Shown in pieces: positions 38,845 to 62,855 of a DNA stretch of 64,000 nt (positions are counted from its first letter, which is position 1; each line of letters starts with the position of its first letter). The notes beneath the pieces were generated by a model. It saw only the letters and a list, made by a program, of their open reading frames with translations. It had not been told where the DNA came from and made no database searches. Origin of the DNA: Carallia brachiata (taxonomy: Eukaryota; Streptophyta; Magnoliopsida; Malpighiales; Rhizophoraceae); the NCBI GenBank assembly GCA_021464245.1, contig JADCRB010000040.1, forward strand, positions 1-64,000, written 5' to 3'. The position numbers and the translations under genes are program-made.

Positions 38845-41800
38845 TCAAGAAACAACAGGACATCCCGGTACTTTGACACTTGGGTCTGTTGGACAATGAG
38901 CCAGGGGACAGCGATCGCCTGCTTCTGAGCCCCACCACAATGGACCCAGATGTTCCATATAGGCAAAAGCGCAAGAAACGAGTACTCCCATTAAAGCAGA
39001 ACTAGCATCTAGGGCAATTGATAAGACATAATTGTATTTAGACCACCAGTCTCTGTGTCTTGTAAACACATGGTGGTTGAAAACATATCCAACCACTGCC
39101 CAAGAAATATAGTTTACCGGTTTGACCGGTAAACTATAACTCGAGAAGATAAGTGGCATGTTGATTTCCCGGATCCACTTATGATTGGGAAATACTCGAG
39201 ACAACAGCCCAACTATAATTATAGAGATCAAGCCAGCGAGGAAGAACCAGTACCACCCCTTATAGACACCTTCTTCGAGGAACATTCTTTGCGGGCCTAT
39301 CACATCCCATATGATCGAACTCTGGAAAAACACATCATCCCCTGGACAAGTCCACGGACTTCCTTTTGGAAGTAACTCTGTCTCACAAATATTCTCAATC
39401 CTATTAAACAGAAAGCGCGTCGTGCCAAAAATGACAATTGAAGAAAGTAATTGTCCAACCACCTGCAATTGCAAATTATGTCACAATTAACCTAAATATG
39501 GTGACTAGCAACAAATGCATAAAAATGAAACTTTCCTATGAGCTCATATATACCTGGACAAGAAACATATCTTTTGGCGGTATTTTCATGTAGGTACACA
39601 ACTTGAACTCCTGGAGGAATCCAAGGGCTCGTGATGAGGTGGCAATGGCGTAAGTCTTGAAAACGGAATTGGCAATGGGCTGTCCAGGATTGGCGTGTCC
39701 TATGATCAAATTTGTGATCACATTAAATTCCATTGGCTGCATATCAGAAAATGTTAGTAGGATTAGCTCTTTACTGCTGCTTAACAACAATGCAGCAAAA
39801 TACGAGAATTACAGCAAGCAAAATGTATGAATCATTACCATATTTGTTACCGATTGTATTTTTCCAAAAGGCAATGTGAGCACAAATGGAATCAGCAGAG
39901 CCACGAAAATAAGCCACCATGGGAATTGCAGCTCTGTGTGAAGTCTTCCAATAACAACAAACGATAAAAGAAGACTCACAAAAAGGAAAATGCCATACCA
40001 CCATCCCGGCACAGACTCGTAGTTCTTTTTCATAACTCTGGTATGCACGTCAACGTTCAAATCATCTGAAGCCTCCCTACACAATTTCCAGATGGTCCTA
40101 TGCATAGATTCCGAAGAGCATAGTTAGATCCATTTAGAACTGTTAAAATACAAGAATGATGAAAAAAAGTGAAAGGAAAACAAAAACAGATATTAAATTT
40201 AAATGGACAGAGAAGCTTACTTTCCATCAAACAGTGCAACGTGTGAAATTGTCGCAGTGATTGCTGACAATCTGAACCCGTATACGAAGGCAGATGATAT
40301 GCTAAGGTATAGCCTGCTATAGCGGCTATAGTCTTTTAGATTGATAATCATGGATTTCGGATCCATAATCCGTTTGAAATCATAACTCTGACCTGAATTA
40401 TCAAATGTTTGAGCAGACAGAATAGGAAATTTCCTAGCAGAATATGCGTTGAACCCCCAGTAAGAAATTGGTGTTAATACACCGACGATTAAGAAGAATC
40501 CCACAAACGCATTTGCTGCTGCCGGAAATGGGGTGGCTAAAGGACTCCCCAAAAAGTTTGAAATAGTTGACCAATCCAATCCGAAGGAGCCAAGTCCAAG
40601 ACCATTTAGTCCTGAACCAATCTGTTGGCCCATGATTGAATCTTTGGAAAACCAGCAAACAATCGACATGGCAGATAAGAATTTGAAAAAGTAAAGTGGC
40701 AGTAGGTGAAGCAGACAACTGAAAACAAAAACCCTGAAAAAGAAGTCTAGCCTCTTATTTCCTCCATTTCCTCCGTCGTTATCCTCGTGCAATGTCCTGC
40801 ATTAAATACAAGAATTCACTTACTTTGATAGCAACAATTACTTGCAATTTTCCTGGACAGGGAAAAAAAAAATTACCTGAAGAAAGACACTTGAGGCAAA
40901 GTTGAGGGCCACCACGCATGAGGTGAATCCACCAGAAATTTAATCAACATGCCAGCCCATCCATAGGCAAGTACCTGAATATCATTAAACAGGGCCAATC
41001 TAAAAATGATTACCGATTTTGATGCATGTATGTTTAATGTTTTATGCTTTCTAGAAAACATCTATGCAAATTAAGAGACTTTTGTTTTTTCAATTGCACT
41101 AATTTTTTGAAAAACAAAAGTTGAGCTCAATTTATGGTCAATATATAACTTATGCCTAAAAGATGTGAAATTGTAAACATACCTGAGTCGTTAGTACAAA
41201 CATGAAGGCAGTGAGTGCATCCATTTGCTTATGGTAAAAAGCTTTATTTGCTGTCAGAACAGCCACAGCACGAGCCCCAGTTGTTCCGCATCTTGCGAAC
41301 ATGCTTATGAGTACATGCTCCTTCGTGTTGAAGGGGCCTGGGTTCATCGTAAATGACCACCTTGTAAATGGTACATTATACTGTCTTGTTGGTAGTGTGG
41401 ATGCCATTAGCCTACCGATTAGGAACATAAGAAAAGATACCACAACTGAACTAATGGTGATATTGGTTGTACGAAAACCAAAAAATTGGTTAAAGAATGT
41501 AAGGAAGCAACATGAAAAAATTCCCAAAACCCAGGTTCTGAATGTCAAGCATGGGAGTGTTGGATCATCCGTAGATGGAACCGTGAGCCTGACCTGCTCT
41601 ATAGGATGATCATTTATTTCCTCATCTCTCATTTCCTCATCTCCTGCAAAATGCGCAACTTTAAGGTTAGTAATAGTAGTTATGTCATTTGACATTACAT
41701 CTCTTTTTCATTGGAGACATCTTGGACCATACTACTCCCCAATCTTCCCATACCATTGACACGTTTATGATAATAAGGTTCTTTTATTATTATTTTTGTG

Positions 41801-50930: not shown

Positions 50931-51019
50931 TGTTAGGTTTTAATTAATTGAACATTACGTTATTAACTGAATAATATCACATAACAATAATGAGAAGTAC
51001 ACACATTCTAATTATAATC

Positions 51020-51782
51020 TGTAACGAGTAAATTTCGAGCCTGTAATAGTTAGACCAAAAAATATAAACAATAAATTACAATAAAAAATTATATATAAAA
51101 AAAAAATACGTGAGGTCGATCTTCGTAAATCCTCTTATTAGTGTTTCTTTTTTGACTCCGTCAAAGGCTGCACGAGCTTGATTTTGACAGAAATAATTTC
51201 CACAGTTTATCTTGAATTGGGTAGACTGAAACTGGATCTGATATGGACGTTTAGACTACAGTTAAGAACCGCAGAGACCTGATCTGAGCCGATCTGGCTT
51301 AATTTTACTGAGGGTCGAAGGGACTTATTCTCGGATGAACTACCTGGACTTTACTGAGAGCCGTATGAGACTTGATCCCAGTCGGATTTGTACTATTTTG
51401 ATATTTTCAGATCTATATTTTCATAAATTCAGATTTAGAGCGATTAGAGAATATAAACCTAAAAATAACCTTAGAAATAGAAACAGTAAATTTTTTACGG
51501 CTTACCCCTGAAATATCTCTCAAAAAGGAGTTAGGAGAGTATACTGCAGAGTAAAACACATAGGAAAAGGAGAAATTTTCTTGAGAGATTTTCAAAATTT
51601 TCTTTTTCTCTCAAATTTTCTGTATTTTTCTATTTACAAATTTGCTGAATATGTTTCGAATTGGGGGCCGAGCGCCTATTTATAGGGTTACTTTCAATGT
51701 AAAAACATTGTGTGAAATGAAGAAAATTAAAGCTACCAACTGCCGACCACAGTAGTCAATTTTTTTTTTTTTGCCTTTTACA
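51020..51782 (-). repeat. Gypsy LTR (3' in element orientation)
   Basis: 763 bp. Complement of TATAAATA at 51677-51684. It lacks the paired hairpin sequences found near the same place in the other LTR (accaactgccgacc here versus two palindromes there). Confidence 0.92.
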
Positions 51783-51908
51783 AATGCCCCCACTTCAAGA
51801 GTCGGTAAAGAAAAACTTTGCAGACGTGATCCGCACCGAGTCTTGAAGTCCAGTTTGAAACTTGAAATGTCCTGATGAACATTGAATGTTGAAGTGTTCT
51901 AACTCTGA

Positions 51909-52523
51909 TTATGCCTGCTGTTGTTGGATCGCAATAGGAACTCGATACGATCTTGAGAAAGTTAGCACCTCAGCCAACATAAAAATTGACATTCTGCCTC
52001 CAGGTGCGATCGAGCTTCCATAACTCGCAAAAGATTTTTTATATGTCTTAAAGTTCCATAGCTCTGGTGAGGATGATCCGGTGGATAAAGAACTTGAACC
52101 TTCCCATGAGGAAGGCCCAAAACTACAGAACTTTAAGACCGACACACAGAGAGACTGACTGTAGTGATGATTCCCAAGTCTGCTCCGACGTAAGGAGAGT
52201 AGTTGGAACTTTCCTGTATGTCGCCGCATCCAAAGGAAGATTAGAATGATTGCAGCTTCCCATCCCTCTGTGGTAGATGTGAATTAAGGAGAGTAGTTAG
52301 AACTCCATGACACCGATGGCGTTGGAGACTGAGTTTCGAGAGCTTTTAAGAATCCCTTGAGGAGGACTACTTCTTCTTTTCTTAACTCGTGCGCCTCGAA
52401 CTTCTTAATCAAGGAACTTTTTGAGGCAAGTGCAGAGAGTAGCCATTTTCTTTTTGAGAAAAAGAAGAGCTGAGGGATGAGTATTACAACTCGGGCATGC
52501 ATGATATATATATATATATACAA
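51909..52523 (-). other. Gypsy 3' region, unassigned open frames
   Basis: Two minus-strand open frames lie between the homeobox ORF and the 3' LTR (52523-52284 and 52229-51909). The first has a charged helical stretch (IKKFEAHELRKEEVVLLKGF); the second is serine-rich. Neither resembles a family I know. The TA repeat at about 52505-52520 lies at the start of the first. They are probably remnants of non-coding 3' sequence. Confidence 0.25.
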
Positions 52524-52728
52524 TAAAGAGTTTTTTTTAAAAAAAAAAAGTCAAAAAGAAAGTACGCAGAATCGAGTAGGGTTATCCACGTCCCTTTCCC
52601 GCATAAAAGACAGAAGAGGCAGTGGCTGACGCGCGTCATGAAAGTCGTTACCGTGTGTTGCAGAAATCATTGCCATGTGTTGCAGAGGTCGTTGCCGTGT
52701 GCTGCAGAAGTCGTTGCACCTTATCTTA

Positions 52729-53345
52729 TCAGCCGTCCTGGCGAGGCCCGAGGCGCAGCTCAAAGTCAAGCTCGGCCTCGTCTGGTGGGCCGATGATGTT
52801 GACGTCGCTGGAGCCTCCCGGCTGGTTGATGCTGCTGGAATATTCTGGGAAGAGAGGTAAAGTTTTGCCGGAATGACTTCCTTCTGCTAGAAAAGTCCCT
52901 CCTGAACTTAAGTACTTAGGAGAAATGAACCATTGACTGACTCCGTAAGACCACCAGGACCAGTACGCATGCTCCCACGGGTTACGGCTTTGATCATTAT
53001 AGCCTGAAGAGACCATTGCAGTGGTAGAACTCGGACTTGCTTCATTTGAGGGCGAAGCTGTACCGGTGGGATCTATTATCGGAATGTCAGACTGTACTTT
53101 GGAAAAAGCAATTCTCAGTGCTGGTTTCTTCTTACTTCTCCGATTTTGGAACCTATAAAACATATTTTTTCCTTTGATCGTCCCGATCGTGAGACAAGTT
53201 GGTAAATCTGAGATGCATTAGCAATAATACTTTCATTGTTGTGGAAGACTTCCTCCAAAATTTGCAGTTGTGCCATGGTTGGTTGCCACCTTGTGCGGGA
53301 TGACCTTTCTTTTCCCTTTTCTTGAGGTTCTGCAACTGGTTCCAT
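52729..53345 (-). pseudogene. WUSCHEL-related homeobox (WOX)-like ORF captured in Gypsy element
   Basis: Two overlapping minus-strand frames give a protein of about 205 residues. The first (ATG at 53345) has a basic start then RTRWQPTMAQLQILEEVF, matching WOX helix 1 (RW-P-T-x2-Q-L-x2-LE-x-L/F). Helix 2 holds ASQIYQLVSRSGRSKEK. A one-base break in the A6 run (53165-53170) moves the reading to MFYRFQNRRSKKK, WOX helix 3. The invariant helix-3 Trp (homeodomain position 48) is Arg (codon 53152-53154). Downstream come Ser-rich sequence, the WUS-box TLPLFP (52846-52863) and the EAR-like LDFELRL (52750-52770). WOX proteins are nuclear repressors/activators that maintain plant stem cells; host genes have introns, this has none. 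It lies in sense, between integrase and 3' LTR. Loss of function here is likely; a functional relative could exist elsewhere. Confidence 0.82.
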
Positions 53346-53479
53346 CTTTCTTATGGCAGAGGAGCAAAGGTCTGGTAGGTGGTGAAGATCGGTTGAGGCT
53401 GATGCTGAGTTTCAGACTCAAACCCTCCGTCGCTTTTATATTTTTGGGCCGTTCACAGTTTATACTCATGCAGGCCAGG

Positions 53480-53990
53480 AGTTGGATTGGATTTTGAACT
53501 TGGGTTCTAGACTGTATCTGAAACTTGGAATTTTTGGGTTTTGGGCTTTGGATTGGATTTGGGTCGAGTGTTTGGACATCTTGACTTGGATTTTTGGATT
53601 TGGGTCGAGTGTTTGGGTTTTGGATTTGGATTTTTGGATTTGGGTTGAGTGTTTGGGTTTTGAGTTTGGACTTAATTTTCAGGCTTTTGAGTTAGGCTTT
53701 GAGTTTTTTGAATTGGGCTCAAGTGTTTGGGCTTGGATTTTCGGGTTTTGGATTTTCGCTTGGACTTTCAGATTGGAACTTCCAAACTTTTTTTTTTTGA
53801 TTATTTTCTTTTTTTTTTTTGATTTTTTTTTCTTTTTTTTGGATTTTTTTAAAACATATTTACACATAATACTGTTTCAGAAACTTATCATTGATCCGCC
53901 CAATTCAGACGCCTTCTTGGTTTTGACAGCATGTAAGTGTTGTGAGAATAGGCTTCCTGCAATGAGTATGACCCGTCCCATTTGGAAGTA
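53480..53990 (-). repeat. Tandem-repeat and homopurine region after integrase
   Basis: Imperfect direct repeats of a tttggatttgggt(c/t)gagtgtttgggtttt unit run from about 53500 to 53760, followed by T-rich sequence to 53850 (A-rich on the coding strand). The long plus-strand open frame here is a by-product of the repeats. Tandem repeats outside coding regions are known in Tat elements. Confidence 0.75.
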
Positions 53991-54193
53991 AGCTTGTCAC
54001 CAAGCCGATGATTCATGTTGATGGGCCGTTGTACTGCAAGAACAAGGTTTCCAACTTGAAAAGATCGAGGGAGGACCCTGCGGTTGAACGTGTTGGTGAG
54101 CCGGACTTGATAGCACTCAACTTACTGTTGTGCTTTGAGCCTCCTTTCATCTACGGCTTCTAAATCATCCAAACGTAGGCGAGCATTCTCCTC

Positions 54194-57100
54194 CTATGTG
54201 AGTTCTTCTAGAACAGCCATACGTAGAGATGGAATATGTGTTTCCAACGGCAGTATTGCTTCAACACCGTAGACAAGTGAGTATGGCGTCGCCTGTGTTA
54301 GAGTCCGATAAGTTGTACGATACGCCCATAATGCCTCCGGAATTATGTCATACCAATCTCTTTTGGATTTAGAGACTACCTTTCGCAATATGTTGCATAA
54401 GGTCTTATTGAATGCCTCGGCCAAGCCGTTAGCCGGGGCATTGTACATGTATGACTTGTACTGCTTGAACTTGAACTTCTCGCAGAGCTTGTCAATCAAG
54501 CTGTTGTAGAACTACTTACCATTATCAGTGATGATGAATCGAGGGACTCTATAACGATAGATCAGCTGAGTCCAGATGAAATTGGCAACATGCTCCTTCT
54601 TTACCTCTCTAAGTGGAATAGTTTCGGCCCATTTTAGGAAGTAATCTATTGCTGCGAAGATGTAAATGTGACCTAAGGATGACTTTGGCAAGGGCCTCAC
54701 TAAGTCGAGACCCCGAGCTTCAAAGAGCCAGGACGAGACAGTTGGATGCAGTGGCTCCGGTGGTTGATGTATGTAATTGGCATGAAATTGATAAACTTGA
54801 TAAGTTCTAGCAAACTCAATGGAATCACGTACCATGGTTGGCCAGTAGTATCTCATCCTTCTGAGCTGAAAGTGCAACTTACGCCCTGATTGATGTCCGC
54901 CACAAACACCAGAATGTGCTTCGATGAGAGCTTGTTTTGTCTCTTCATTGCATAGGCAGCGAAGTAAAACTCTATCAAAAGACCTTTGATACAGAGCATC
55001 CTTGAAATATATGAAGCGGGGAGCTCGTCGTTGAATTTCTGTCTTATGAAGACGATCTTCGGGCAGCTTCCCGTGCTGTAGGTAGTCAATGATTGGTTGG
55101 CGCCAATCTTCGTCCTCCTCGAGACGTACAAATATAGCGTTGGCTGCTGTAGTTTCTTCATCATCCTTTTGTGGCACTATCCATTTCTGGCATACAGCAA
55201 CAACTGTAGCCTGGATTTCTGACTTTGCAAGAGAAGTGGCCAAGTTAGCCAACGCGTCTGCCTGAATATTTTCTCGTCGAGGCACATGCTCCAAGGTGAT
55301 GTTTTCAAATTTATCCATTAGCTGTCGAGCACGTTGATGGTAAGGCGCAAGGTCCTCTTTCTTCTCATCATACAACCCTGTAAGTTGGTTGATGACGAGC
55401 TGGGAATCTCCATGGACTTCTATAGTTGGAATCTTCATATCGATAGCCATTTGAAGACTAATGATTAAAGTTTGGTATTCAGTAACATTATTTGAACATA
55501 ACTCACCAAGAATGATAGCATATGGTAGTATTTGTTGTTGAGGACTGACAAACACTATGTCGGCACCAGCACCATCACGTTTTGCTGCACCATCAAAGAA
55601 CATCATCCATGGTGGCAATGTCTCAATGTAAAAGACCTCTTCATCCGGAAGATCGTCTGTGAACTTCCAATCGGACGGGACAGGGTGATCTGCAAGGAAA
55701 TCTGCTAGAGCTTGTCCTTTGACTGCTTTTTAAGGCACGTAGACAATGTCGTAGCTCTGTAGGATTACTGCTTACTTGACAAGTCGTCCTGACAAGATCG
55801 GTCTAGATAAGATATATTTGACAAGATCAGCTCTGACAATGAGACGTACTGTGTGAGCTTGCATGTGGTGCCTCAGCTTATCAATGACAAAGAACAGTGC
55901 TAGACATGTCTTTTCAATGGGCGAATAGCTCAACTCCGGACCGTTTAGTGTTCTGCTCAAGTAGTACAGGGCAACTTCCTTTCCCTGCTCATTTTTCTGT
56001 GCAAGCAGGGCTCCCAAAGATCTTTCATGCGCTGCAATGTAGAGAATCAACGACTTTCCTTGAATTGGAGCACTCAGGACTGGTGGATTGGAAATGTACT
56101 TCTTTATGCTCTCGAAGGCTTTACTACAAGCTTCGTCCCACTCGAAGTTGACATCCTTCTTCATCAACCGATGGAAAGGTTGACATCTCCCAGCTAAGTT
56201 GGAAATAAAACGACGAATGTATGCCAGCTTTTCTTGTAAACTTCGCAGCTCGTGCAGGTTTTTAGGTTCAGGCATCTTTTGAATTGCCTCAACCTTTGAC
56301 TGATCAACTTCAATTCCACGATGGCACACTACGAACCCAAGAAACTTTCCTGATGTGACACCGAATGCGCACTTGAGAGGGTTCATTTTAAGCTGATGCC
56401 TGCGAAGTCTTTCAAATACCGTCTTGAGATCCTCGAGGTGGTCTTTGCGCTTCTTAGTCTTTACAACTAAGTCATCAACATAACATTTTACAATCTTGTG
56501 CAACATGTCATCAAAATTTTTTTGCATAGCACGTTGATAAGTGGCACCAGCATTTTTTTTAATCCAAACGGCATAACTTTGTAGCAATATATACCTTTTG
56601 GGGTGCAAAATGCTGTCAACTCTTCATCTTCTGATGCCATTCTGATTTGGTTATAGCCTGAAGAACCATCCATGAAGGACAATGCTTCGTGACCTATTGT
56701 TGCATCGACTATGATCTCCGTTATTGGCAATGGAATGTCATCTTTCGGACAGGCCCTATTAACATCTCAAAAATCAACACATACATTTAACTGTCCATTC
56801 TTCTTTCTTACCGTGTTGGCAATCCACGTTTGGGTATGTGACCTCTCGGATGAAACCAGCATTGATCAGCTTGTTAACCTCCTCCTCGATTTGTGGAATT
56901 AGTTCTGGGCAGAACCGTCGTTGTGGCTGCTTGACAGAACGAATACCCCTTTTTACCGCTAGACGATGCACCGCAATCTTTGCGTCAAATCCAGACATTT
57001 CTTTGTAACTCTATGCGAACACGTCCCTGTATTGACTTAATACCTGAACATATTCTTACTCTTCTTCTACAGTAAGTAAAGCATTTACAATGTAGGTCGA

Positions 57101-57637
57101 GGATCTTTCGGAGAGTCAAGATTGACCTCCTTAAATTCATCAACAGTTGCTTGACCACTATCTTCAAATTTTAGGGGAGCCTCCTTTACTTCGCCGTCTG
57201 ATGAGTCAGACTCAGCCTTCTCGCTAATTGTGACATGAAATGTAGAGCCCCTGACTTCATCTTCTTTGTTTGACTGGATAAGACTGTCTTGTTTGGTGGT
57301 GGTGGTGATGGCACGTGCATCAGCTGTAGATGGTAGTGATCCACACTGGTGACTTCTCCTGATAGCCTAAACCAGGTCGAGATGTTGAAGTTTGAGCAAT
57401 GGCGTCACTTGTAGATGGTAGTGTACCCATTGTGCTCGGGTTTGAGAAGTCATAGCTCGCCTTGACCAAAAGCTTATATGCATTAGGATCAAATCCTTCG
57501 TGTGTTCTTCTTTCTGGAAGTGAGCCGCCTTTGACTGCCCCCGTGTGTGGTCTGACGAAGCCTTTTAATGGTTTTGAGGACAAAACCAACTCAATCTTTG
57601 GTATCGACAGAGTGTAAGTGTCCTTCAAGTCGTGCAA
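54194..57637 (-). pseudogene. Gypsy pol: RT, RNase H, second RNase H, integrase (interrupted)
   Basis: The minus reading starts with a linker typical of Tat-type elements (HEGFDPNAYKLLVKASYDF, then PGLGYQEKSPVWI, 57500-57330). RT includes FCPELIPQIEEEVNKLINAG, FMDGSSGYNQIRMA, FCTPKGIYCYKVMPFGLK and KCYVDDLVVKT (YVDD 56471-56482). The Gypsy RNase H (YIAAHERSLGALLAQ; YYLSRTLNGPE) follows. The second RNase H (MMFFDGAAKRDGAG, 55606; EVHGDSQLVINQL; ADALANLATSL) comes next, then integrase (HSGVCGGHQSGRKLH; AIDYFLKWAETIPL; FIITDNGK; NGLAEAFNKTL). Frame breaks lie near 56800, 56560, 55740 and 54510. The integrase zinc site is damaged: YQVYQ stands where C-x2-C is expected. Confidence 0.93.
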
Positions 57638-57824
57638 TTCCTTTGTTTTGGGTTGGCTATGTCATTACTCCTGTTTAGAATCAACACAATAAGAGAAAGG
57701 GGGTTGACCTTATGGGCGTCGTGACTTCGGCACATAACGTAGGACTGGAGTGGATCTTGAAGATGGAGCCTCCTACAGGCAAAGTTCGGCAGACTGTGGC
57801 TGCTTCTCACCTGTTAGGGTCTGC

Positions 57825-58075
57825 ACTGTTGGATTGCCGCCTTTTATACTCGTACGAAGCAGGAGTGTGTTGGTGAACTGTTCGCCTTTTATACTCGTGC
57901 GAGGCAAGAGTGTGTTGTTGAACTATATTGTCGCCTTTTATACTCGTGCGAGTCAAGAGTGTTGAACTGTGGTGGATTGATTATCACCTTTTATACTCGT
58001 GCGAGGCAGGAGTGCTTTGTTGTGGAGCTGTTCGCCTTTTATACTCGTGCGAGACAAGAGTACTTTGTTGAACTG
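57825..58075 (-). repeat. Five tandem copies of a ~45-60 bp unit
   Basis: The unit gccttttatactcgtgcgag with a variable tail (caagagtgtgttgttgaactgt type) occurs five times (about 57837, 57886, 57932, 57986, 58033). A shorter ctgntgagctg repeat follows at 58075-58165. They occupy the position where gag and protease are expected. Confidence 0.88.
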
Positions 58076-58760
58076 GTGAGCTGTTGAGCCGGAGAGTTGG
58101 TGAGCTGCTGATCTGCTGAGCTGTTGAGTTGGTGAGCTGTTGAGTTGTTGTGCTGCTGAGTTGGAATTTGATTCAGGTTTAAGTTTTACCCTCGAATCTA
58201 GATTTGGATTTTGAGTTGGAATTTGGATTTTGGCTTTGGGCCCGGATTTAACCGAGTTTATGTTTGGTTTCGAATTTGGGTTTGTTGGGTTTTGAGTCGG
58301 GATTTGAGATTTGCCCCCAAATCTAAATTTGAATTTTGATGAAGGATTCAGACAATGCACAAAAGCTTCAGACGTTTTTTTTTCTTTTTTTTTTCGTGCT
58401 TCTTTTTTTTTTGCTTTCTTTTGCACTTCTTTTTTTTAATCTTTTTCTCTTTTTTAAAATTTTTTTTGGTTTTTTTTGAATTTTTTTATTTTGTTTTGTT
58501 TTTTTCTTTTTTTTTTTGAGATTTTTTTTTAATCATAAGAGTAGTTTAGAAATTTACCGTTTGATTTGGTCAGGTTGAAATGCATTTATGACCTGATGAC
58601 ATGTAAGCATTTGTTCGAATTAGGCATAACCCGTCCCACTTGGAAGTGAGCTTGTGGCAGAGTCGGTACTCTCGTCCTTCTGTTGGCTTGATTGGCTAAG
58701 AATTGTGCCCCCAATTTGAGACGATTGAGGATGATCTTTGTAGTTGACTGCATTAGTGGA

Positions 58761-59153
58761 TCAGATTTGGTAATGTTTAATTTGACGTTTCTCCTTACGA
58801 ACGGCTAACTTGTTTTCTATCACGTCCTCTAGCTGTTGGAGAGATAACAATTCTTGATCTAATTCCTCCAATCCTTTGTTGAACTGTGCAATTCTGCTAT
58901 CCAATTTTGTGAACATGTCTTCTATGCTAGCAGCGTCTGTCATCATTTTATCAATGTTGGCAGATGATGCCCCATGAAAGACAGTTGTGGAGGGCTCTTC
59001 TAGTTTCTCCATGCTTGCTTCTGCATAACATCTCGGACCTTGTTGTTGGGCAGAATTTGATGCTCTACCCCTAACTTCGGTGGGGGTAGGTGATCGACTC
59101 CTCCGTTTGGTGACAGAGTCACGTGAGAAATCTAACTGTTGTATGAGTTGCAA
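58761..59153 (-). CDS. Gypsy 5' ORF, coiled-coil protein of unknown function
   Basis: 130 residues, minus strand, first open frame after the 5' LTR leader. The N-terminal half is basic and Ser-rich (SVTKRRSRSPTPTEVRGRAS). The C-terminal half looks like a coiled coil (MFTKLDSRIAQFNKGLEELD, LLSLQQLEDVIENKLAVRKE). Position fits gag or an extra N-terminal ORF, but no CCHC knuckle or capsid motif is visible. It may be the remaining 5' piece of gag. The frame is intact over its length but function is unknown. Confidence 0.4.
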   Translation of the reverse strand: MQLIQQLDFSRDSVTKRRSRSPTPTEVRGRASNSAQQQGPRCYAEASMEKLEEPSTTVFHGASSANIDKMMTDAASIEDMFTKLDSRIAQFNKGLEELDQELLSLQQLEDVIENKLAVRKEKRQIKHYQI

Positions 59154-59490
59154 GTCTTCAATTTTTAATTTTGTTGGTGGCGAGGAAGTTTGTTCTTCCG
59201 CAAGTCTGTGGACTCATTTGAGTGGTAAGGAATTGTGTCCGTCGGCGGGTTTGTGATCCTGCATACCCGGGTACGGTAGTTGATGCAGAAAGTGTTGCGA
59301 CTGTCCACTTTGGTACCATTTAATGTGATGGATACCTGTTAAAAATTTTTTTCGTCTTTTTTCTCTGTTTTGTCTTTTGTCTTTTCTTTTTTTCTTTTTC
59401 GCTGCTTCTTTTTTTTTCTCTTTTTTTTTGTTTTTTTTTTAGGAACAAGAGATGAGAGGTGAAGAGGTCCCACCGAGTGTGTCAAAAATT

Positions 59491-60300
59491 TGTAACGGGT
59501 AAATTTCGAGCCTGTAACAGTTAGACTAAAAAAATACAAACAACAAATTACAATAAAAAATTGTAAAAATAAAAGAAAATTTACGTGGGGTCGATATTCG
59601 TAAATCCTCTGATTAGTGTTCCTTTTTTTACTCTGTTAAGGGCTGCACGAGCTTGATCTTAACAGAAATAATTTCCATAACTTTATCTTGAACTGGATAG
59701 ACTGAAACTGGATCTGATTTGGACGTTTAGATTACGGTTAAGAACTACAGAGACCTGATCTGAACTGATTTGGCTTAATTTTACCGAGGGTCGAAGGGAC
59801 TTATTCTCGGATGAGCTGCCTAAATTTTACTGAGGGTCGTATGAGACTTGATCACAACCGGAGTTGCACTATTTTGATATTTTCAGATGTATATTCTCAT
59901 AAATTCAGATTTAGAGTGATCAGAAAATATATAAACCTAAAAATAACCTTAGAAATGGAAACAGCAAATTTTTTAGGACTTACCCCTGAAATATCTCTCA
60001 AAAAGGAGTTAGGAGAGTATACTGCAGAGTAAAACACGTAAGAAAAGGAGAAATTTTCTTGAGAGATTTTCAAAATTTTCTTTTTCTCTCAAATTCTCTG
60101 TATTTTTCTATTTACAGATTTGCTGAATATGTTTTGAACTGGGGGCCGATGGCCTATTTATAGGGCTCCTTTCAATGTGAAAATATTGTGTAAAAGGTAG
60201 AAAATTAAAGCCACCAACTGTGCAGTTGGTGGCTTTTGGTCACTATGGTCGGCAATTGCCGACCACAGTGGTCAACCTTTTTTTTTTTTTTCCTTTTACA
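59491..60300 (-). repeat. Gypsy LTR (5' in element orientation)
   Basis: 810 bp. On the minus strand it has TATAAATA at 60155-60162 as the likely promoter. Two perfect palindromic stretches lie at about 60211-60234 (gccaccaactg/cagttggtggc) and about 60246-60265 (tggtcggcaattgccgacca), which could fold in the U3 part. Confidence 0.92.
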
Positions 60301-60476
60301 TAATCTCTCAACTAATATTCACGTCAGTCACACAATAAACTAAAACGTTTTAATTTCTTATATACTAAACTCTAACAACTTCTATTCTGACTCTAATACT
60401 AAAAATATAATAATTAATTATAATTCTACTAAAATACTAAATCCTAATTTTAAACGATTCTAAATTAATTTCAACA

Positions 60477-62587: not shown

Positions 62588-62855
62588 TGATAAATTTTAA
62601 TTAACTTAACACTACTTTATTAACTGAATAGTGTCATACAATAATAATAAGAAGTACACACACTTTAATTATAATTTCTTAACTAATATCTACACCAGCC
62701 ACACCAATCACACAATAAATTGAGACAGTTAATTTCTTATGTACTAAATTATAACAATTTTTATTCTGATTCTAATACTGAAAACATAATAATTAATTAT
62801 AATTCTACTAAAATACTAAATCTTAATTTTAAACGAATCTGAATTAATTTCAACA

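Follow-up and report, generated by a model that had tools for sequence, protein, structure and literature searches.

A WUSCHEL-type gene inside a retrotransposon

The stretch of DNA analysed here (64,000 nucleotides (nt) of Carallia brachiata, contig JADCRB010000040.1, positions 1 to 64,000; hereafter the window) contains a Ty3/Gypsy element that spans positions 51020–60300 on the minus strand and carries an open reading frame (ORF) of the WUSCHEL (WUS) type. The original prediction placed this ORF in sense orientation between integrase and the 3′ long terminal repeat (LTR), inside an LTR-bounded element with a TAATC target site duplication, and described in it a WUS-type homeodomain, a WUS-box and an EAR-like tail. 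The mapping of ORFs, Pfam domains and LTRs bears this out: the ORF is in sense with the element, with integrase on its 5′ side and the 3′ LTR on its 3′ side, both LTRs and both TAATC copies were located, and the motifs were read in the sequence (Table 1). The intact copy L013 matches the Pfam Homeodomain with an E value of 3.6e-12, and the solved structures of the WUSCHEL and STENOFOLIA homeodomains with E values of 6e-18 and 1.6e-15, respectively.

The prediction erred in assigning a single ORF and a whole protein to the window copy, where the coding sequence lies in two frames. Frame 1 starts with an ATG at 53345 and has 76 codons, of which residues 17–40 match the Pfam Homeodomain with an E value of 8.5e-4 and a score of 19.5 bits, short of the curated cut-off (22.9 bits). 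Frame 2 (53181–52729) has no Pfam match of its own, and a protein search with this piece alone gave no match at E ≤ 0.01 (29 candidates). Alignment to L013 shows that the frames are parted by a 10-nt deletion near 53185, and since this deletion shifts the frame inside the homeodomain, the window copy is broken and encodes no whole protein.

Copies of the family

The genome from which the window comes (337.5 Mb, 164 contigs) was searched with the frame-2 piece, which gave 1851 first-look candidates. The best 150 were scored, and all of them match, with 74–100% protein identity (window included). Two ORF-selected sets were used, L001–L030 with their flanks and L031–L070, short stretches from ranks 31–150; an integrase match adjoins the ORF at 29 of the 30 loci with flanks, including the window. 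Because sampling by the ORF itself was to be avoided, copies were also chosen by their integrase. This search listed 113 matches, from which 20, including 16 of the 22 best, were taken for an examination of their 3′ DNA: the WUS-type ORF is present in 20/20, 13 have the start, the homeodomain, the LxLxL tail and the stop in a single frame, and 12 of those 13 also have the WUS-box. Two cases named as fatal to the prediction, a lack of homeodomain similarity and an ORF confined to this copy, are contradicted by the Pfam match of L013 and by the 150 scored places.

The full-frame ORF is intronless and encodes about 205 amino acids. Three full-frame sequence types, L013-like, L095-like and L091-like, were told apart by eye rather than from a tree. 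In the L091-like type (L087, L088, L090–L092) helix 3 of the homeodomain is altered (NVYFWFQNRRHRETVALR): neighbouring aromatic residues are swapped and several adjacent residues are changed, while the equivalents of WUS residues Q89, N90 and R94 are retained.

LTR pairs were retrieved for five copies that looked young. Three copies, all of the L095 type, could be measured fully (K of 0.017, 0.022 and 0.0064), and the other two, C40 and C92, have a partial pair within the stretch. Assuming 1.3e-8 substitutions per site per year, the lowest K would correspond to about 0.25 million years and the window copy would be about 4 million years old. The bases beside the LTR pair of C164 form no matching 5-nt duplication, so that the age of this copy derives from LTR identity alone.

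Two loci have an unusual organization. At L073 (C49:173334-183333, the same place as L008) reverse transcriptase, RNase H and most of integrase are deleted, and what is left comprises parts of the LTRs, the gag side and a WUS-type ORF that is open except that its ATG reads TTG; judging from this structure, L073 is possibly a non-autonomous carrier of the gene. L003 (C1:423728-427165) contains a tandem pair of WUS-type ORFs (C1:425228-425665 and 424366-424803), with a spacing of about 0.9 kb.

Relation of the protein to WUSCHEL

A profile built from seven element ORFs and compared with about 5.8 billion proteins gave 440 matches at E ≤ 0.01. The best 120 all have a Pfam homeodomain, their descriptive names are mostly WUSCHEL (P0023, a differently named match, reads as a WUSCHEL protein), and none is more than 53% identical to the first query sequence; the remaining 320 score lower. 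A single-sequence search gave 17 matches, which are WUS or WOX11-like where named. When the predicted homeodomain was compared with the PDB, all 11 matches at E ≤ 0.001 were the WUSCHEL homeodomain (WUS-HD; nine, including the first) or STENOFOLIA (two). In the AlphaFold model of the whole protein, the confidence is 89–93 in blocks 21–70, which belong to the homeodomain only, for a mean of 56; since nothing else is confidently predicted, we make no claim on the structure of the tail.

The element homeodomain has about 50% identity to the solved WUS-HD and the same length, which exceeds by one residue that of the WOX11-type rows and of the seven other host WOX that were compared. The WUS-box (ETLPLFP) and a C-terminal LxLxL motif are further features in common with WUSCHEL, in which these two motifs serve repression. 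The C-terminal motif is LELRL or LELHL in element proteins and LELSL in the WUSCHEL proteins of named plants. Among 69 copies, [TI]LPLF is present in 58 and LxLxL in 63; the Pfam EAR match is sub-threshold in L095 and L091. Unlike WUSCHEL, the element ORF is intronless, short and borne by a multicopy retroelement, helix 3 reads Q-N-R-R-S-R instead of Q-N-H-K-A-R, and the middle region of the protein cannot be aligned. A 26-row homeodomain tree groups element proteins with the WUS clade against the WOX11-type rows (support 97/94). An origin of the element ORF from the WUS clade is well supported by these comparisons, and its origin from WUS itself is likely rather than proven.

The WUS residues that contact bases are R38, Q89, N90 and R94, and Y86 contacts the backbone (Sloan et al. 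2020, PMC7203112). The contact residues are retained in most of the 69-copy set: N90, K82 and Y86 in 69/69, R38 in 65/68, Q89 in 61/69 and R94 in 60/68. The four base contacts are also retained in the L091 type. At the place of WUS S36, 60 of 68 copies have an arginine. An S36R mutant of WUS was reported to have altered TAAT binding, in which monomers predominate as is usual for homeodomains (Sloan et al. 2020, PMC7203112), and by analogy the element protein may therefore accept TAAT sites better than WUS does.

Selection on the ORF

In an alignment of 627 nt and 70 copies, one indel alone recurs in over five copies, and its 6 nt preserve the frame; frame-breaking indels occur in 16/70 copies. 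The ratio of nonsynonymous to synonymous variants (N/S) decreases with their frequency: it is 184/74 = 2.49 for singletons (1 of 69 copies), for a neutral expectation of 3.18, then 2.11 for variants present in 3–9 copies, and 24/23 = 1.04 for those in at least 10 copies. Singletons differ from the latter with p = 0.010 (Fisher), and the same type of test on the 30-copy set gave p = 0.039.

The ORF is less diverged than the noncoding DNA that separates it from the LTR (0.0856 vs 0.1244, lower in 387/406 pairs; ratio to the 3′ flank 0.69, 95% interval 0.63–0.76), and it has fewer indels per kb (1.4 vs 7.0 in the 3′ flank). It is also less diverged than the LTR in 230/253 pairs and than the stretch upstream of it in 316/406, and more diverged than pol (0.084 vs 0.056; ORF lower in only 42/190 pairs).

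The original prediction expected the ORF to be conserved across copies with a ratio of nonsynonymous to synonymous substitution rates (dN/dS) below 1, and this was found: in addition to its presence in every integrase-selected copy, dN/dS is 0.05–0.48 in the homeodomain in 9/9 pairs of full-frame copies, and 0.37–0.59 over the whole ORF. For the homeodomain, two pairs pooled depart from the neutral nonsynonymous share of 0.757 with p = 0.0002. The four tests, which differ in strength, agree in suggesting that the family's ORF evolves as a protein under selection.

These data bear on the idea that the ORF is a functionless passenger, a captured host fragment spread by hitch-hiking. Many copies are broken, including that of the window, and the tail is weakly constrained, as would be expected of a passenger; the low dN/dS of the homeodomain, the low indel rate, the existence of three full-frame types and the divergence below that of the flanks speak against it. 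We consider this explanation, already disfavoured, to be very improbable.

A putative internal promoter

A TATA box lies 92–96 nt before the ATG in 28/30 ORF-selected and 20/20 integrase-selected copies, and GGCCCA is found near it in 18/30 and 18/20 copies, respectively. The block from −126 to −56 has a p-distance of 0.067–0.068, vs 0.120 farther upstream. This conserved block looks like an internal promoter downstream of pol, from which the ORF is probably transcribed. It has no clear likeness to the DNA upstream of host WUS.

It may be that the protein binds the LTR or the internal promoter of its own element, and so times transcription. A regulatory role has indeed been proposed for the TRP28 proteins of Retand (Vicient 2025, PMC11963269), and in the 200 nt upstream of the window ORF TGAA occurs 5 times for 2.6 expected, a value reached by 0.07 of shuffles. 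Against this self-regulation, neither of the LTRs tested, from the window and from C113, is enriched in WUS-type motifs: TGAA occurs 11 times vs 12.5 expected and 16 vs 15.5, TAAT 6 times vs 13.4 and 8 vs 9.0, and longer motifs and CACGTG 0 times. We regard it as improbable.

The element of the window

The LTRs of the window element (763 and 810 bp) start with TGT and finish with ACA, and their Kimura two-parameter (K2P) divergence is 0.102 (763 sites). They enclose, in this order, a decayed gag side, reverse transcriptase, RNase H, RVT_3, integrase and the WUS-type ORF; the order of the Pfam domains is RVT_1, RT_RNaseH, RVT_3, then Integrase_H2C2 and rve.

Table 1. Features of the retrotransposon and of its WUS-type ORF in the window
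Feature	Position	Strand	Basis
Target site duplication TAATC, low side	51015..51019	.	read in sequence
3′ LTR	51020..51782	-	89.5% identity to the other LTR; ends read directly
Polypurine-tract-like stretch, edge of 3′ LTR	51783..51797	-	read directly
Frame 2 of the WUS-type ORF (helix 3 of the homeodomain, WUS-box and EAR-like tail)	52729..53181	-	ORF and alignment
EAR-like tail LDFELRL (LxLxL is FELRL in the window copy)	52750..52770	-	read directly
WUS-box TLPLFP	52846..52863	-	read directly; alignment of its counterpart to WUSCHEL proteins
Frame 1 of the WUS-type ORF (ATG, N-terminal arm and initial helices of the homeodomain)	53115..53345	-	PF00046, sub-threshold
TATA box of putative internal promoter	53434..53440	-	95 nt upstream of ATG; GGCCCA at 53445-53450, 5′ of TATA
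Integrase, C-terminal part	54194..54499	-	position and homology (tblastn 90–93% in three other copies); no Pfam match
Second RNase H (RVT_3), integrase zinc binding, part of integrase core (rve sub-threshold)	54512..55618	-	Pfam
Reverse transcriptase (part) and RNase H	55772..56608	-	Pfam
Gag-side region, broken frames	57320..59153	-	two ORFs scanned, no Pfam gag model
5′ LTR	59491..60300	-	LTR comparison; ends read directly
Target site duplication TAATC, high side	60301..60305	.	read in sequence

Angiosperm Tat elements, namely Ogre and Retand, carry two RNase H domains, the additional one being of archaeal type and placed after the first and ahead of integrase (Neumann et al. 2019, PMC6317226). 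We read the RVT_3 of the window element as this archaeal-type domain. Because a second RNase H sits in that place, the assignment to the Tat clade of Ty3/Gypsy, which the original prediction had made, is supported, on the basis of domain order rather than of a reverse transcriptase tree. An antisense TRP28 ORF (PF04195) is found between pol and the 3′ LTR in 97% of Retand clusters, in which this region measures 2.9–6.6 kb and the LTR 315–1194 bp (Vicient 2025, PMC11963269). TRP28 was not found in the window copy, where the sole antisense ORF of at least 100 amino acids between pol and the 3′ LTR has no Pfam match, and we therefore file the element as Tat and leave its lineage within Tat unassigned. 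Its LTRs are within the Retand range, and its pol–3′ LTR region, about 2.4 kb, is shorter.

Tandem repeats are present at 53533–53850, between integrase and the WUS-type ORF, and at 57838–58164, on the gag side; about half of Retand elements have repeat arrays in the pol–3′ LTR region (Vicient 2025, PMC11963269). Just beyond the element, a 127-nt direct repeat (60350–60476 and 62729–62855, 91% identity) has its two copies 2.4 kb apart. At 38845–41695, three minus-strand ORFs cover consecutive parts of an OPT oligopeptide transporter (PF03169); since the parts are split over three ORFs, this is probably an intron-bearing host gene, about 9 kb from the element.

Origin of the ORF

The absence of introns, which the original prediction took as consistent with capture through RNA, is confirmed: the element ORF is uninterrupted, and in the two host WUS genes, L075 and L076, the homeodomain and the WUS-box are in separate open frames (the exons being deduced from open frames, not from annotation). 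Regarding the route of capture, the missing introns fit RNA, and the homology to host flanks that would settle it was not found: when the flanks on the 5′ and 3′ sides of the ORF were compared with nine host WUS-type loci, all matches were short and most were of low complexity. The RNA and DNA routes are therefore not separable beyond the missing introns.

The two host loci match Capsicum WUS at 74% over residues 1–110 and at 80% over residues 25–109, and the pair perhaps comes from a past duplication. Among the proteins compared, the host WUS exon is closest to the one from Erythroxylum (75% over 130 amino acids).

It was also suggested that the element could influence host meristem genes through small RNAs, transcripts of the ORF being processed into small interfering RNAs that silence host WUS/WOX genes. 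A host-like coding sequence in high copy number could be such a source. The sequences argue otherwise: for 22 element ORFs, the longest exact stretch shared with both host WUS loci is 12 nt, none exceeds 16 nt with any of the nine host WUS-type loci, and the best inexact match to host WUS is 86% over 35 nt. This part of the prediction, already disfavoured, has hardly any likelihood left in our view.

Comparison with known systems

Among the best 120 of the 440 profile matches in about 5.8 billion proteins, no other retroelement-borne WUSCHEL was found, within the limit set by masked genomes. Nor was a retroelement with a WUSCHEL or homeobox gene found in a literature search that did not extend to preprints and most subscription papers, so that its absence in print is unproven. 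In the papers on extra ORFs of plant LTR elements that were searched for these words, homeobox is not mentioned, nor is WUSCHEL where that word was sought. A survey of 121 angiosperm genomes found 15 non-canonical domains, and homeobox is not among the nine that are named in its section on the screen (Alvarado-Marchena et al. 2022).

The extra ORFs described in Tat/Retand elements (TRP28, Grande gene23 and PvRetro13 ORF2) are comparable: one of them, Grande gene23, is reported to have a promoter of its own, and the WUS-type ORF possibly has one too (Vicient and Casacuberta 2020, PMC7264820; Vicient 2025, PMC11963269). Unlike these, the WUS-type ORF is in sense rather than antisense, and it encodes a known type of developmental transcription factor. 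Domains of host genes are fixed in other plant Gypsy elements, namely AlkB in Phalaenopsis, B3 in Aegilops and YgdH/LONELY GUY in Citrus (Alvarado-Marchena et al. 2022). In these elements too a host-type domain is retained over rounds of replication; the element described here differs in that it retains a transcription factor together with its short motifs.

Animal retroviruses carry transduced cell-fate genes, and a retroelement that bears a host-type cell-fate regulator is similar in this respect. Contrary to the retroviral case, in which a defective virus carries the gene as a recent replacement, the WUS-type gene is family-wide in a high-copy endogenous element.

What the gene may do

The explanation that we favour, with some confidence, is that a captured WUS-type gene has been kept as an accessory gene, whose product is a trans-acting, repressor-type factor that acts on host stem-cell programmes. 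The comparison of copies supports a scenario in which a Tat-clade family took up the gene as an intronless coding sequence before the present sequence types split, and retained it; the window would contain one old, broken copy of this family. The homeodomain of the full-frame protein is predicted to bind DNA as WUSCHEL does, and the WUS-box and LxLxL tail, seen as motifs, would serve repression as they do in WUS. The protein would act in trans on WUSCHEL-class sites of host genes, and shoot cells would be moved to, or held in, a stem-cell and germline-lineage state in which a new insertion gets inherited. Plants set no early germline aside, and their gametes derive from shoot stem cells; a retroelement therefore gains from activity there. 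In Arabidopsis, expression of LTR elements was reported to be raised in the vegetative shoot stem cells, which precede the germline (PMC7560203).

Several observations weigh against this explanation. Only 23/69 copies are free of an in-frame stop before codon 200. In the 26-row tree, the element proteins sit on a long branch adjacent to the WUS clade and outside WUS, and the L091-like type, which is outside the 69-copy set, has a phenylalanine at the place of Y86. The putative promoter consists of a motif and a conserved block, and nothing more. The part after the homeodomain is weakly constrained, with dN/dS of 0.40–0.67 in eight pairs and 1.00 in one, and the tail taken alone does not differ significantly from the neutral nonsynonymous share. 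The N/S of singletons differs from that of variants in at least three copies with a p value of 0.13 only. Last, the 70-copy set was picked by protein score, which favours open frames; this choice does not explain the low divergence of the ORF, because the 180 nt outside the search query have a likewise low divergence (0.077).

The main rival is that the protein is an antagonist, which vies with host WUSCHEL for the sites they share or for co-repressors and thereby weakens the WUS-dependent exclusion of foreign RNA from shoot stem cells. In its favour, most copies retain the contact residues as well as the WUS-box and LxLxL, and WUSCHEL is reported to be involved in keeping RNA viruses out of stem cells (PMC10589665). 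A pure decoy, on the contrary, would not need the LxLxL and the WUS-box, both of which are retained, and we consider an antagonist unlikely. The original prediction had proposed competition with host WUS and expression in germline-forming tissue, both of which are plausible.

Returning to the repressor-type accessory gene, a bolder version can be put forward tentatively, as a possibility that we would not call probable: the family may be to plants what a retrovirus with a transduced cell-fate gene is to animals. A stem-cell identity factor expressed from an internal promoter would put or keep host cells in the lineage that leads to gametes, whereby element copies are inherited, and the sequence types, which differ in helix 3 and retain the base contacts, would have retuned their choice of DNA.

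Few host-type genes are listed as fixed in LTR elements of plants, among them the LONELY GUY (cytokinin) domain reported from Citrus; the WUS-type ORF adds a developmental transcription factor to them. As a practical consequence, genome-wide surveys of WOX genes may count element copies wrongly. With a retrotransposon family that carries, and appears to select, its version of a stem-cell master regulator, the steering of host cell fate by a mobile element would become directly testable.
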